Of a stretch of 64,000 nt of DNA, positions 16,420-21,766 are shown one piece after another (position 1 is the stretch's first letter; the number at the start of each line of letters is the position of its first letter). Location of the stretch: contig NZ_VWSG01000009.1 in assembly GCF_008629655.1 (NCBI RefSeq), positions 62,001 through 126,000 on the forward strand. Direction: 5' to 3'. A program made the translations under genes and the position numbers. Source of the DNA: Paenimyroides baculatum (GTDB lineage Bacteria > Bacteroidota > Bacteroidia > Flavobacteriales > Flavobacteriaceae). The notes beneath the pieces were generated by a model. It saw only the letters and a program-made list of their open reading frames with translations. It was not told the origin of the DNA and did not search any database.

Positions 16420-17697
16420 ATGAAAGCACCTTTAGCAGAACGTATTCGCCCAAAAACATTAGAAGACTATATTAGTCAGGATCATTTGGTTGGTGCAACG
16501 GGTATTTTAACGCAAAGTATTAAACGCGGCATTATACCGTCGATGATTTTTTGGGGACCACCAGGAATAGGAAAAACGACTTTAGCCGAGATTATTGCAC
16601 AAGAAAGTAAACGACCCTTTTATGCGTTGAGTGCGATAAATGCCGGTGTTAAAGATGTACGCGAAGTTATTGAAAAAGCCAAAGGAAACAACGGTTTATT
16701 TACACCCAAAAATCCTATTTTATTTATTGATGAAATTCACCGTTTTAGCAAATCGCAACAAGATTCACTATTGGCTGCTGTTGAAAAAGGATGGATTACA
16801 CTGATTGGTGCTACAACCGAAAATCCGAGTTTTGAAGTAATTCCCGCATTGCTTTCGCGTTGTCAGATTTACACGTTGAACGCGTTTACAAAAGCAGATT
16901 TAGAGGAGTTACTGAATCGTGCGTTAATTGTTGATGAGGAACTGAAAGAAAAAAATATTTCGATTATAGAAAACGAGGCTTTGTTCAGAGTTTCAGGTGG
17001 CGACGGTAGAAAACTTCTGAATACTTTTGAATTGATTGTAAATTCGATTGGTGATGAAACCGTTGAAATAACCAACGAAAAAGTACTACAGATTGTCCAA
17101 AAAAATACTGTTTTGTACGATAAAACTGGCGAACAACATTACGATATCATATCGGCTTTTATAAAATCGATTCGTGGAAGTGATCCAAACGGAGCTGTTT
17201 ACTGGTTAGCCCGAATGATTGAAGGTGGTGAAGATTTAAAATTTATTGCACGTCGTTTAGTTATTTCAGCTTCTGAAGATATTGGTCTGGCAAACCCAAC
17301 GGCAATAATTATGGCGAATAATATTTTTCAGGCAGTATCGGTTATTGGTTACCCCGAAAGTAGAATCTTGTTAAGTCAGTGTGCTATTTACTTGGCAACA
17401 TCGCCAAAAAGCAATGCCAGTTATATGGCAATTGGCAAGGCACAAGCAGCAGTAAAACAGACGGGAGATTTATCAATTCCGATTCATTTACGAAACGCTC
17501 CGACCAAATTAATGAAGGAATTGGGTTACGGCGAAGATTATAAATACAGCCACGATTATCCGGGAAATTTTACCTATCAGGAATATTTACCAGACGATTT
17601 AGTTAACACACCTTTTTACGAACCCGGAGAAAATGCGCGTGAAAAACAAACCAAAGACTTTTTACATCAGCGTTGGCAGGGAAAATATAATTATTAA
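16420..17697 (+). CDS. rarA: Replication-associated recombination protein RarA (MgsA-type AAA+ ATPase)
   Basis: AAA+ ATPase of the clamp-loader/RuvB-like clade that acts at stalled replication forks. The 425-residue product shows Walker A GPPGIGKT (46-53), Walker [11 protein letters not shown] (about 100-109), sensor-1 [11 protein letters not shown] and the C-terminal MgsA domain ([32 protein letters not shown]) typical of RarA and eukaryotic WRNIP1. Full length. It ends in a hairpin terminator and is transcribed alone. Confidence 0.96.
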
Positions 17698-17698
17698 A

Positions 17699-17722
17699 AA
17701 AACACTTCTTTTGAAGTGTTTT
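17699..17722. terminator. Bidirectional terminator between rarA and the convergent operon
   Basis: AAAACACTTC (17699-17708), loop TTTT, GAAGTGTTTT (17713-17722): a perfect 10-base-pair stem with A/T tracts on both sides. It separates the ends of rarA and the minus-strand operon. Confidence 0.85.
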
Positions 17723-18136
17723 TTATTTCTTGTTTAAAGCCGAATATTCTAAAGCATTTTTCAACGCATCAACGTGAGATTTTGAACGTAATTTCACACG
17801 ACTTTCTCCGTTTGCTGTAAAAATTTGTTCGTTTTTGCAGTTAATCAAAGTTACTGTTAATTTAGTAGCAGTCATTGATTTTCCGCGCTCTACGTTACAT
17901 TTTAAAACCTTACAAGGATCTGCTTTTGCTTCTTGCGGTAATTCCTGATCGTCGTAAAAAACGGTATAACCGGCTTCTTCTAATTTATGTTTTAAAAAAG
18001 AATTTACACGGTATTCGTTAAATTCTTCCTGAAAATTATAAACCTTTTTCATTTGAACATATTTAGCGTTCAAACCTTGTGCCTGCATGCCTAAACCTAA
18101 ACATGCGAAAAGCATTAAAAATAAAAATTTCTTCAT
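17723..18136 (-). CDS. Hypothetical small secreted protein
   Basis: The 137-residue product has a signal peptide MKKFLFLMLFACLGLGMQAQ. The mature part contains two close Cys (DPCKVLKCNVERG), then a stretch of beta strands (ATKLTVTLINCKNEQIFTANGESRVKLRS) and a final helix. I do not recognise a family. It is the last gene of the ABC-transporter/DUF3299-like operon and lies one base after the YjjG-like gene, so it is co-transcribed; whether it takes part in the same function is unknown. Confidence 0.75.
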   Translation of the reverse strand: MKKFLFLMLFACLGLGMQAQGLNAKYVQMKKVYNFQEEFNEYRVNSFLKHKLEEAGYTVFYDDQELPQEAKADPCKVLKCNVERGKSMTATKLTVTLINCKNEQIFTANGESRVKLRSKSHVDALKNALEYSALNKK

Positions 18137-18137
18137 T

Positions 18138-18827
18138 TTATAATATCTCTAAAAGTTGATTTAATTGTTGTACTTCTGCCACACCAATGGTATTTTCTAA
18201 TTTAAATTCGTTAAACCAGACAACCTGCATACCTACATTTAATGCACCGTGAACATCGGCATTTATGTTATCGCCAATCATTAAACTGTTTTCGGCTTTA
18301 GTCTTTGCGGTTGTTAAGGCATGTTGAAAAATTTGCGGATGCGGTTTTTTCACTCCTGCTATTTCGGAATTTGTTATTGTTTGAAAATATGCTGTTAAAT
18401 TGGCATTTTTCAGTTTTCTCTCTTGAACAACATCAGGTCCGTTGGTAATAATGTGCAAGCGATAATTGTTTTTCAATACATCTAACGTTTCATAAGCACC
18501 ATCAAAAACATGATTATAATTAGGCAGTTTACCGATAAATTCATCTGCAATGTAATAGATATGATCATCGCTAATCTTTACATCAATTGCATCAAAAGTA
18601 TCTTTTAATCTGCCATAGCGCAGAAAATCACGCGATATTTCTTCTTTCGAAAATCGTTCCCAATAAGAATCGTTAATCGGTTTAAAATTTGTCATAAAAT
18701 TATCAACACCAATTAATTGCATCTCGGTAAAAATTGCCTGAAAAGTTAATGCAGAATTTTTATCGAAATCATAAATGGTATGATCCAGATCAAAAAACAA
18801 ATCGGTAATATATTCCTTTTGTATCAT
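18138..18827 (-). CDS. HAD-family nucleotidase, YjjG type
   Basis: A 229-residue haloacid-dehalogenase-fold phosphatase. Motif I is FFDLDHTIYD (nucleophile Asp13, acid Asp15), motif II IITNGP, motif III KKPHPQIF (Lys) and motif IV MIGDNINADVHGA (Asp pair). Architecture and length match YjjG-type pyrimidine nucleoside 5'-monophosphatases, which remove non-canonical nucleotides. Cytoplasmic. Its ATG overlaps the stop of the DUF3299-like gene by one base, so translation is coupled. Confidence 0.88.
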   Translation of the reverse strand: MIQKEYITDLFFDLDHTIYDFDKNSALTFQAIFTEMQLIGVDNFMTNFKPINDSYWERFSKEEISRDFLRYGRLKDTFDAIDVKISDDHIYYIADEFIGKLPNYNHVFDGAYETLDVLKNNYRLHIITNGPDVVQERKLKNANLTAYFQTITNSEIAGVKKPHPQIFQHALTTAKTKAENSLMIGDNINADVHGALNVGMQVVWFNEFKLENTIGVAEVQQLNQLLEIL

Positions 18828-19309
18828 TATTTCTGATGTGTAATAACGGCATTTTCAATATGGTAAATCCAATCGTCGATATCGTCTGCATTGTATCTAA
18901 ACGTACCCTCCATAGTAACATAGGTATCGGTTTTTAATCGCGGCGTACTACCTTTAAACTTAATTCCCATAATGGTTTCAGGACCGGCATTTCCGCAGAA
19001 AAAACACTGCGCAAAAACATTTTTACTTAATGCGTACGATTTACTGTCGATAGGCACAATAAAGCCCGAAGCTTTGATTTTTTTACCTTGCAACGCTTTT
19101 AACGTTCCATTTACCATTGGATACATTACTTCGCCGTAATGCGGATTTTTCTTTTTAATGAAATCAATCTGTCCTAATAATTTCCAAGTGACTTCGGTTG
19201 GGTTTTGATAGTATAATTCCGATGGTTTTTCTGTTGTATTTTTCACCGAGAAGCTCATTAAAAAAACGGCTAATCCGCAATAAGCTGCAACGAATATTTT
19301 TTTTAACAT
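18827..19309 (-). CDS. DUF3299-like exported CxxC protein, copy 2
   Basis: The 160-residue product has an N-terminal signal or anchor (about 1-20, MLKKIFVAAYCGLAVFLMSF), a VTWKLLGQ segment, KKIKASGFIVPIDS, and a CxxC (QCFFCGNAGPET, Cys102/105) followed by TYVTMEGTFRYN. This strand pattern (G..VP....FFLC..P) resembles DUF3299, found next to FtsX-like ABC transporters and, in vibrios, in zinc-regulated operons. It is a clear paralogue of the next gene upstream (same N-terminus, same CxxC, same ENAVIT end). Function unproven. Confidence 0.7.
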   Translation of the reverse strand: MLKKIFVAAYCGLAVFLMSFSVKNTTEKPSELYYQNPTEVTWKLLGQIDFIKKKNPHYGEVMYPMVNGTLKALQGKKIKASGFIVPIDSKSYALSKNVFAQCFFCGNAGPETIMGIKFKGSTPRLKTDTYVTMEGTFRYNADDIDDWIYHIENAVITHQK

Positions 19310-19322
19310 GTGATCTATTTTA

Positions 19323-19787
19323 TTATTTTTTATTGGTAATTACTGCGTTTTGTATATTAAAAATTAAATCGTCTTTAGTTTTATCGTTATAAAAAAATGT
19401 TCCTTCTAACGTAATATAAGTATCGGTTTTTAAACGTGGTGTTTTGTTTTTAAACTGAATTCCCATTAGTGTTTCGATACCAGCATTTTTATTGCAAAAA
19501 AAACAGTGCGAATACACATTCTTACTTAATACGTACGATTTACTATCTAAAGGAATTACAAAACCGCTTATCTTAATCTTTTTGCCTTGTAATGACTCCT
19601 TAATAACATCACCATAATTTTGCATAACTCGCAAGCTGCCTCCCATTCTGCCTAACATTTGCCAAGTGACTTCAGTCAGCTGATCTTGAACATTAATTTC
19701 CGCAAAAGATTTAGCCTTTTTAGTAGAAAAGCTCATTAAAAAAACGGCTAATCCACAATAAACTGCAATGATTATCTTTTTAAGCAT
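19323..19787 (-). CDS. DUF3299-like exported CxxC protein, copy 1
   Basis: The 154-residue product shares nearly its whole length with the downstream neighbour: MLKKI(I/F) start, YCGLAVFLMSFS, EVTWxxLG, LQGKKIK(I/A)SGF, LSKNV, CFFC (Cys95/98), TPRLKTDTY and xIxNAVIT. It differs in the loop around residues 48-60 and after the CxxC (NKNAGIETL instead of GNAGPETI). It begins inside the last 8 bases of the permease gene, so it is coupled to it. Probably periplasmic, membrane tethered. The CxxC could bind metal or act in thiol redox; neither is shown. Confidence 0.7.
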   Translation of the reverse strand: MLKKIIIAVYCGLAVFLMSFSTKKAKSFAEINVQDQLTEVTWQMLGRMGGSLRVMQNYGDVIKESLQGKKIKISGFVIPLDSKSYVLSKNVYSHCFFCNKNAGIETLMGIQFKNKTPRLKTDTYITLEGTFFYNDKTKDDLIFNIQNAVITNKK

Positions 19788-21045
19788 TTGCCAACGTTTT
19801 TGATATGTTTAACGAATACGCTTTAATTGCCGGAATAATTGCGGCTACAATTCCTACGGCTAATGTGGCTACAAATAACATTCCTTCTTCTTTCCATAAA
19901 AATTCAAACGGATCAAATGCCATTTTAAATTCTTCTTGTGATGAAACGGATAAGAAATACAATCCGATTCTACCAAATACAATACCAAGAATAAAACCTA
20001 TCGTGCATAAAAAGATACTTTCTAGCAAAACCAACCATAATAATTGAAATTTGGTAGCTCCGGTGATGCGAAGCAACGCAAATTCGTATCTGCGTTCTTT
20101 CAACGTATTATATAATGCAACGAAAATACTAATGCCTGAAATAAACATAATGCCATATGCTAAATAGGTTAATGCCGAAATTCCCACACCGAACAAAGCA
20201 AATAAACGGTTCACTTCTAAAGCCGGTGAGGCTGCCTGCATTTCGGTATTTTGAGGAATAATTCTTGGCCAGGTCATTTTAGCCATATTGTTGCGCAATT
20301 TTAAAAGAACTGCTGTAATTTCTTTTCCTTCGTGTGGATTGACTTCTTCGTGATGATGCTCCTCACCTTCTGTATGAACGTGTGGTTCTTCGGCAGAATG
20401 ATTATGAGCCTCTTCGGCATGACCTTTGTGCTCATGGTCGTGCATGTGCCAAACCGATGCAATGTTTGTCAAAATTAACTGATCGGCAACTTTACCAGAC
20501 GGAACCAATATTCCCACCACTTTATACGCATGGTGATCGTGCACTTCGCCTTCTTCTACATCGCCATGTGTTCCAAAAAAGGTATCACCAATTTTCAAGC
20601 CGATATTTGCCGCAATGTTAGATCCTACCACCACTTCAAAATCTTTAGCAAATAAATTTCCTTGCTGAATTTTCAAATCGAAATGTTTGGTGTAATTTTC
20701 GGTGGTTCCTACAATTTTATACCCCAAATAATTATCGCCATAAGCCAGCGGAACCGCACTTTCTACCATTGGTTTGTTCATCCACGCTTCGGCTTCGGTG
20801 TACGAAATATTTCCCGGAGGAGCATCGATCTGATAAACCGACGAAAGGATCAATTGCAACGGACTTCCTTTTGCTCCCAACACCAAATCGATATTATCCA
20901 TTGATGAGGAAAATTTTTCCTCGAACTGTTTTTGAAGCAAAATCAATATCGATATAATTGAAACCGACGCGGTTAAAAGTATGATGCTTAAAAACGTATT
21001 CAGCGGCTTAAACCACGTATTTTTCCATGCTATTTTACTAATCAT
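19780..21045 (-). CDS. FtsX-like ABC transporter permease with His-rich periplasmic segment
   Basis: A 421-residue MacB/LolC-type permease: one membrane helix near the N-terminus (about 17-38), a large periplasmic domain, then three helices at about 280-305, 330-357 and 388-412. The periplasmic domain ends with an unusual stretch, residues 200-238, containing 13 histidines among acidic residues (for example HMHDHEHKGH and EEHHHEE). Such stretches bind Zn2+, Ni2+ or Cu2+ in other proteins. FtsX-like permeases usually act as mechanotransmitters or lipoprotein releasers rather than channels. It overlaps the ATPase gene by 4 bases (ATGA). Confidence 0.88.
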   Translation of the reverse strand: MISKIAWKNTWFKPLNTFLSIILLTASVSIISILILLQKQFEEKFSSSMDNIDLVLGAKGSPLQLILSSVYQIDAPPGNISYTEAEAWMNKPMVESAVPLAYGDNYLGYKIVGTTENYTKHFDLKIQQGNLFAKDFEVVVGSNIAANIGLKIGDTFFGTHGDVEEGEVHDHHAYKVVGILVPSGKVADQLILTNIASVWHMHDHEHKGHAEEAHNHSAEEPHVHTEGEEHHHEEVNPHEGKEITAVLLKLRNNMAKMTWPRIIPQNTEMQAASPALEVNRLFALFGVGISALTYLAYGIMFISGISIFVALYNTLKERRYEFALLRITGATKFQLLWLVLLESIFLCTIGFILGIVFGRIGLYFLSVSSQEEFKMAFDPFEFLWKEEGMLFVATLAVGIVAAIIPAIKAYSLNISKTLANA

Positions 21046-21671
21046 GACAAGGTGATTTGGTGGTTAAACAATGATTTTAAGCGTTGATCGTGTGTTACAA
21101 TAATTAATGAAGATTGGTATTCTTTTGCTAAATCGCTCAATAATCGGGCTACAATTAAAGCATTTTCATCATCTAAACTCGATGTTGGTTCATCTGCCAA
21201 AATTACCGACGGATTGTTTATTAACGCTCGAGCAATGTTTACGCGCTGTTGTTGTCCTATACTTAATTGACTTGGCAATTTATGAACGTGATCTTTCAAT
21301 CCTAAATTATCCAAAATGCTTAAGGCTTTTTCTTTGGCTTTTGATTTTTTAGCAATCCACGATGCCAGCACAACATTATCTAAAACCGAAAGTGCTTCGA
21401 TAAAAAACGATTTCTGTAAAATCATTCCGATCGATTGTCCACGAAAGGCATCTAATTTAGCTGCGTTTAACTGTAAAATATCCTGATTGTTTATAGTGAT
21501 GTTACCTGCGGTTGGCTGCAACAAACCACCCAGCAAATGCAGTAAAGTGGTTTTACCTGTACCCGAATTTCCTGTAACCAACAAAGTTTGTCCGTTTGGA
21601 CAATCGATATCAGGAAAATGAAATTTTTGCGTAGCCGAATAGGAAAAAGTAACGTTTTGCGTTTTAATCAT
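21042..21671 (-). CDS. ABC transporter ATP-binding protein (LolD/MacB type)
   Basis: A 209-residue nucleotide-binding subunit. Walker A GNSGTGKT (34-41), Q-loop ILQKSFF (about 83-89), signature LSIGQQQR (135-142), Walker B VILADEP (155-161), D-loop SSLD and H-loop His193 (VTHD) are all intact, so it should hydrolyse ATP. It is the first gene of the six-gene operon with the His-rich permease and two DUF3299-like proteins. The YEFALLRITGAT segment of the permease supports a MacB-type complex. Confidence 0.93.
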   Translation of the reverse strand: MIKTQNVTFSYSATQKFHFPDIDCPNGQTLLVTGNSGTGKTTLLHLLGGLLQPTAGNITINNQDILQLNAAKLDAFRGQSIGMILQKSFFIEALSVLDNVVLASWIAKKSKAKEKALSILDNLGLKDHVHKLPSQLSIGQQQRVNIARALINNPSVILADEPTSSLDDENALIVARLLSDLAKEYQSSLIIVTHDQRLKSLFNHQITLS

Positions 21672-21766
21672 TTTATATATTCTTAAACGGTATGCAAGAT
21701 AGTGAATATTCTGCGGATTTAATAACAGTTTAGGTTTGTTTCAGGTTTAAAGTTTATAGATTTGTT

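Follow-up and report, generated by a model that had tools for sequence, protein, structure and literature searches.

A His-rich loop built into a MacB-type permease of Paenimyroides baculatum: a probable Bacteroidota variant of Zrg-type zinc systems

The type VII fold of ATP-binding cassette (ABC) systems, that of MacB and LolCDE, implies periplasmic mechanical work more than a transmembrane pore. The part that MacB-type machines play in zinc homeostasis is disputed, as Vibrio cholerae genetics points to import and work on Pseudomonas aeruginosa to export. The ZrgABCDE systems of V. cholerae and V. parahaemolyticus combine an ATPase, a MacB-type permease, and an OB-fold protein of the DUF3299 type with a separate His-rich protein, ZrgA. 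V. cholerae zrgA mutants that also lack ZnuA are reported to fail at low zinc (PMC9820375), and the V. parahaemolyticus zrg operon is reported to rise 76- to 206-fold at low zinc (PMC9817125). The same core genes form PA4063-PA4066 of P. aeruginosa, where the separate His-rich protein, PA4063, is described as zinc-binding (PMC8561739), and the role proposed is pyochelin-cobalt export (PMC11481552). Here we analyze a six-gene operon of Paenimyroides baculatum whose permease carries the His-rich segment within its own chain. It lies in a stretch of 64,000 nucleotides (the window; contig NZ_VWSG01000009.1, our C31, positions 62,001-126,000) of a genome of 3.34 Mb in 31 contigs. A first, sequence-only reading had described related vibrio sets as zinc-regulated.

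We read the first four genes of this operon as a Zrg-type mechanotransmission (type VII) ABC system acting on periplasmic zinc, and we put the probability of this reading, including the following steps, at about 0.6. The disordered His/Asp/Glu loop of the permease would be a low-affinity collector of Zn2+ or of a zinc chelate and would hand the metal to a fixed site of H160, H169, and H202 in the periplasmic domain. ATP hydrolysis would move the periplasmic domains, driving the metal to the CxxC partner with its OB fold, which would pass it to an importer or to client proteins, leaving more usable zinc under scarcity. The loop would thereby take over the collecting job of the vibrios' separate ZrgA. 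Such a shift of metal collection into the permease is suggested by the loop together with the lack of a ZrgA match in the P. baculatum genome (PF10986, 0 matches at E values up to 1). When Aeromonas ZrgA was compared by phmmer at default settings with the gene calls of 119 loci, a single match at E ≤0.01 was obtained (gene L044.8, 0.00025). As a family, the set is well supported as a Bacteroidota variant of Zrg-type systems, and zinc is likely the metal. The sequence-only reading, which had proposed a Bacteroidota variant of a zinc or other divalent-metal system, is therefore supported at family level; zinc control of the window's own copy is not.

The ZrgB-like permease, of the FtsX/MacB type and 421 residues long, is encoded at 19,780-21,045 (minus strand, as are all window features below unless stated) and exceeds the Pfam cut-offs for MacB_PCD (6.4e-12) and FtsX (3.2e-15). 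In its structure model, which has a mean predicted local distance difference test (pLDDT) score of 89.8, the stretches below 50 (residues 214-221 and 226-232) are confined to an acidic His loop. The fold search returned LolE of LolCDE as the top match, and MacB was also matched. A residue count upheld the 13 His first noticed in residues 200-238 (20,332-20,448), out of 18 His in the whole permease. This His-rich part thus lies within the permease chain, as first proposed.

Conservation was followed over 114 loci, namely the window, 33 loci found in 31 of the 299 genomes of a family sample that includes P. baculatum itself, and the best 80 of at least 589 stretches confirmed in a scan of species genomes with a permease profile. 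These loci are mutually related and were picked by likeness to the window, so their neighbourhood counts are not independent events. A His/acidic segment occupies the same permease position in 29/29 loci of a first set, with 3-46 His per 23-143 residues. Across the 114 loci the median is 6 loop His, with at least three in 103 and at least five in 77; loss of the segment among orthologues, named beforehand as grounds for abandoning the proposal, was thus not what the comparison found. Outside the loop, H160 and H202 are present in 114/114 family members and H169 in 113/114, in a comparison where L002 and L003 yielded one identical open reading frame; another alignment gave 112/114 for H169. The stretch that holds these three residues lies at 20,440-20,568, and the model places H160 and H169 before strand 174-180 and H202 in helix 195-209. 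All three are found in Aeromonas ZrgB, in a permease from a Deinococcus radiodurans plasmid, and in three Flavobacteriaceae permeases beside DUF3299 genes (L068-L070), whereas the single FtsX-type paralogue compared from the P. baculatum genome lacks them. Their recurrence in Bacteroidota, Aeromonas, and Deinococcus suggests a putative metal site common to these permeases.

The permease family is spread through the Bacteroidota. In the family sample, 35 genomes have a permease match at E <1e-28, three of which (G182, G261, and G009) form a more distant branch; weaker matches are other FtsX-type proteins, and the only other genome of the genus matches weakly at best (2.6e-5). The 80 stretches retained from the species-genome scan are all from Bacteroidota, including Flavobacterium, Pedobacter, Dyadobacter, Spirosoma, Algoriphagus, and Chitinophaga. 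All 29 loci of the first set retain the gene order ATPase, permease, CxxC protein. Among the 114 loci, an ATPase gene immediately precedes the permease in 103, and a CxxC homologue immediately follows it in 99 by BLAST clustering and in 91 by stricter phmmer labels. Genes of the loci were taken as longest open reading frames and labelled by phmmer against single reference proteins, which under-counts genes that are small, overlapped, or diverged, as illustrated by the second CxxC gene of L012/L043, which one gene survey found and the labels missed. In a tree of 121 permeases, made by a quick method with a midpoint root and with long branches flagged, the window falls within a set of 11 rows (Shimodaira-Hasegawa-like approximate likelihood ratio test, SH-aLRT, 98) with 7 Flavobacterium loci and three from other Bacteroidota (L085, L086, and L096). 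Aeromonas ZrgB and L068-L070, which together with L071 and L072 stand outside the 114 and were treated separately, form a clade of four (SH-aLRT 99) apart from the 114.

Two distant loci of that separate group have another composition. In L071 (5989-8084; G266:C2) and L072 (G084:C44), a distant FtsX-type permease and an ATPase are preceded by genes for a rotamase and a 707-720-residue protein and followed by a ZnuA-type protein (Pfam ZnuA 1.6e-37 in L071, with a homologue in L072). Of the three His, their permeases retain only H202. It would be unusual for a ZnuA-type protein to be paired with a permease of the MacB type. In L195 (2282-4589), on plasmid MP1 of D. radiodurans, genes for a CxxC (CPFC) protein, an ATPase, and the permease occur together with an alkaline phosphatase gene close by; this permease has the three conserved His without a His-rich loop, and the set is a possible third-phylum form of the system.

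Two exported proteins follow the permease, protein A (19,323-19,787; 154 residues), apparently a diverged copy of protein B, and protein B itself (18,827-19,309; 160 residues), a DUF3299-like OB fold with conserved C102 and C105. A lack of any DUF3299 match in these proteins, likewise named beforehand as grounds for abandoning the proposal, was not found either: the fold agrees, although the sequence model is matched only below the cut-off (protein A, E 0.0035). With a model of protein B (mean pLDDT 90.9), Foldseek ranked 4hsp, the structure of PA4066 (DUF3299), first among 350,542 PDB chains (E 1.4e-4, TM 0.47/0.50; runner-up E 3.8e-3), and VIA-align 2 likewise placed 4hsp first (Z 9.5, root mean square deviation 2.8, 102 aligned, 24% identity). 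A PDB profile search listed 4hsp second, after an antibody, at an E of 0.035 that is too weak alone, and a PDB search with the single sequence of protein A gave nothing useful. The profile alignment sets the CFFCG loop against the CIHVPP stretch of PA4066. Of 47 CxxC homologues, 30 match DUF3299 at E ≤0.1 (best 4e-05), and W42, G82, S95, C102, C105, and G135 (protein B numbering) are invariant in all. Protein A also weakly matches TIGR03943 and DUF1980 (E 0.0021 and 0.009, far below cut-off), and proteins of these two families also occur beside permease genes. With 58-59% identity between proteins A and B, and a single CxxC gene in each of the 7 Flavobacterium loci, the pair looks like the product of a duplication in the window's lineage. 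Tandem CxxC pairs were labelled in 8/114 loci, the window included, and clustering put a homologue in second place in 12.

The set thus resembles ZrgABCDE in its ATPase, MacB-type permease, and OB-fold DUF3299-type protein, in the three permease His seen in an Aeromonas locus of ZrgABCDE make-up (ZrgA, ATPase, permease, and DUF3299 genes consecutively), and in the zinc-linked neighbourhoods of many Bacteroidota members. It differs in that the His-rich segment is inside the permease, in that the window copy has no Zur-box-like site, and in that its proteins carry CxxC where DUF3299 has C-I-H-V-P-P. Likeness to PA4063-PA4066 extends to PA4066 as the best fold match of protein B, whereas the separate His-rich protein of that set has no counterpart in the window's.

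Zinc-linked neighbours were scored within 7 genes of the permease, in neighbourhoods of up to 15 genes. A Fur-family gene was found in 35 of the 114 loci, MerC in 34, CobW in 28, and GTP cyclohydrolase I in 18; further neighbours were a TonB-receptor-type gene (10), PhoX (7), and alkaline phosphatase (7). The neighbourhood comparison recommended at the outset showed, besides the kept gene order, at least one of the first four neighbours in 50/114 loci, as compared with 0/20 control regions that lie ~87-100 kb away on the same contigs and hold ~12 genes each (237 in the 20). COG0523 (CobW) and GTP cyclohydrolase isozymes are recorded as Zur-regulon members in other phyla (PMC2770081). The loop His count was higher in the zinc neighbourhoods, with a median of 8.5 versus 5, although the rows are not independent. 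MerC-family membrane protein genes lie close to the permease, often with Fur-family genes and a palindrome described below (for example L053 8550-8948 and L081 6872-7219), and their product is a candidate zinc importer or partner. TonB-type receptors and DUF4625 lipoproteins, one of the latter carrying a stretch rich in His and Asp, are encoded in the neighbourhoods of L042 (10,174-12,488) and L054 (9389-11,764).

Palindromic motifs were sought in 71 upstream regions from the first set, including the window, and the result was TAATGCAACTNAGTTGCATTA, 21 bases long, which resembles a Zur box and is a putative one. The best of 264,690 control positions scored 12.1 bits with its matrix. In 80 loci unused in motif finding, 53 sites reached at least 15 bits, and 39 of these precede zinc-associated genes, in 22 loci; for 30 column-shuffled palindromic motifs the means were 2.2 sites (maximum 5) and 0.10 near zinc-associated genes. 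The sites are often paired, 36-40 bases apart. A palindrome at the operon was found in 27/50 loci with zinc-linked neighbours versus 3/64 without. In Flavobacterium sp. 9AF (L081), which belongs to the window's clade, a Fur-family gene, the palindrome, MerC (Pfam 1.4e-11), and the genes for ATPase, permease, CxxC, YjjG, and secreted protein stand consecutively, and this gene order ties the window's form of the operon to a zinc setting. Among the papers that word searches of an open-access library turned up, none describes this permease, or such a box in Bacteroidota, in its title or displayed abstract, which does not prove that no such paper exists. Published work on ZepA and on Riemerella ZntR, also consulted, had no bearing on this system.

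Several observations weigh against a zinc-handling Zrg-type system. None of the four zinc-linked neighbours occurs in 64/114 loci, and the palindrome stands at the first gene of the operon or at the ATPase gene in only 30/114. Just one or two loop His are present in 11/114 permeases. Nine of the 114 permeases have no adjoining ATPase gene though the contig continues; those without one directly upstream (L085, L098, L111, L121, L128, L136, L137, L146, and L156) may use an ATPase encoded elsewhere. The DUF3299 scores of proteins A and B (17.9 and 13.3 bits) stay below the cut-off of 22, and by VIA-align's own rule the Z of 9.5 for 4hsp is formally tied with generic OB folds at 8.9. The export role proposed for PA4064-PA4065 also belongs here, as does the lack of a palindrome upstream of the window operon in a genome whose Fur-family gene at C12:292782 is preceded by two.

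The P. aeruginosa work leads to the foremost rival, in which the ATPase-permease pair rids the periplasm of excess metal or of a metal chelate while the His loop senses or holds metal. The MacB/LolE-type fold of the permease and the pyochelin-cobalt experiments on PA4064-PA4065 (PMC11481552) both speak for it. Among the six operon genes, however, Pfam found no adaptor-like protein, and in the family the genes nearby are those for CobW, GTP cyclohydrolase I, and Fur-family proteins, the first two recorded as zinc-scarcity genes in other phyla (PMC2770081). This neighbour argument holds for the family, as the window copy has no palindrome; on balance we regard export as unlikely.

Control of the window copy bears on a second rival, that the system was put to another use in the window's lineage, be it constitutive envelope work or a task linked to YjjG, with the His loop inherited. 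A check for Zur sites upstream of 21,671 had been suggested. No Zur-box-like palindrome lies there, but such palindromes recur widely among the family's loci, so the zinc link rests on the family rather than on the window copy. The gap before the operon (21,672-21,766) holds a TATCTTG element ahead of the start codon, common to L080 and L081, which we take to resemble the Bacteroidota -7 promoter box. No palindrome lies within 300 bases upstream of the ATPase gene in the window or in 7/7 Flavobacterium loci. Elsewhere in the window, a pattern search gave 23 matches with at most 3 mismatches against 30.3 expected by chance, and no palindrome is claimed there; no gene start lies within 300 bases downstream of the single weight-matrix match (13.9 bits). 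By contrast, two tandem palindromes precede the genome's Fur-family gene C12:292782 (G000:C12:292709-293102), one ranking first in the whole-genome pattern search with zero mismatches and its partner among the two next best. Zinc control of the window copy is accordingly unsupported, as its operon has no palindrome while this Zur-like gene has two. The genome-wide matches are mostly background (137 versus 116 in reversed controls, and 425 versus 271 in another run), and only the tandem pair was used as evidence; a one-mismatch match at G000:C13:20339-20357 scores the same as the pair's second site.

The last two genes also enter into the re-use rival. The YjjG-type pyrimidine nucleotidase (18,138-18,827; 229 residues), first called a YjjG-type phosphatase, was verified by TIGR02254 (173.1 bits versus a cut-off of 159.9). 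The small secreted protein (17,723-18,136; 137 residues) matched no Pfam or NCBIfam model. Both follow the CxxC gene in 7/7 Flavobacterium loci, where the secreted-protein homologues have 233-248 residues; the window copy lacks their C-terminal part of ~100 residues. The secreted protein was labelled in 8/114 loci, the window included. Gene order thus makes the two a Flavobacterium-lineage addition to the operon, and the sequence-only reading, which left them unexplained, is advanced only so far: no link of either to zinc was found. Their constant presence, the missing palindrome in the same loci, and a loop reduced to 4 His in L082 and L083 would fit re-use. Yet the window's loop has 13 His against the family median of 6 with the three conserved His kept, L081 of the same clade has the Fur-family gene, palindrome, and MerC just upstream of its ATPase gene, and the P. 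baculatum genome has no ZnuA or MerC match. Re-use seems to us improbable, a little more so than export.

That genome also has a single weak match to ABC-3, the ZnuB family (25.6 bits versus a cut-off of 20.1), and this, with the missing ZnuA and MerC matches, suggests that the operon may be relevant to zinc in its own organism. Two marginal CobW matches (28.8 bits in a frame of 1159 residues and 21.1 bits in one of 378) were not accepted as COG0523.

A system that handles lipoproteins or cell wall, like LolCDE or FtsEX, and whose metal features are incidental is very improbable, for although the ATPase scores best with LolD among NCBIfam models and LolE is the permease's first fold match, the LolD (182.4 versus 307.75 bits), LolCE (36.6 versus 362.45), FtsE (161.5 versus 264.85), and FtsX (<18 bits) models all stay below cut-off, the FtsX-type paralogue compared lacks the three His, and the family has zinc neighbourhoods. 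The system shares with LolCDE an ATPase on a separate chain and, with MacB as well, the type VII permease fold; the His loop and three-His set, not found in that paralogue, set it apart from both. The MacAB model likewise does not fit, with MacB scores of 131 (ATPase) and 21 (permease) bits versus 966 and with ATPase and permease as separate genes.

The remaining anatomy agrees with the operon as first described, six co-directional genes with overlaps or short gaps, all on the minus strand. The ZrgC-like ATPase gene (21,042-21,671; 209 residues; ABC_tran 2.1e-32, over the Pfam cut-off) is complete, as originally noted, with Walker A, signature, Walker B, and H-loop words. From it onward the junctions are a 4-base overlap, an 8-base overlap, a 13-base gap, a 1-base overlap, and a 1-base gap. 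A hairpin (17,697-17,724, given for the plus strand) lies directly 3' of the last gene.

In a wider and more tentative view, to which we assign somewhat less than even odds, these loci would make up a large undescribed Bacteroidota branch of zinc-handling type VII ABC systems. In it a fused His loop would replace the solute-binding protein and feed a three-His site shared with ZrgB of Proteobacteria and with Deinococcus, and in many lineages the system would be part of a Zur regulon with TAATGCAACTNAGTTGCATTA as its mark and with MerC-family candidate zinc channels among its other members. The palindrome offers a testable Zur-box candidate for Bacteroidota. For the dispute over import and export by MacB-type machines, the built-in metal-binding part and the three His kept across phyla pinpoint residues for mutation.

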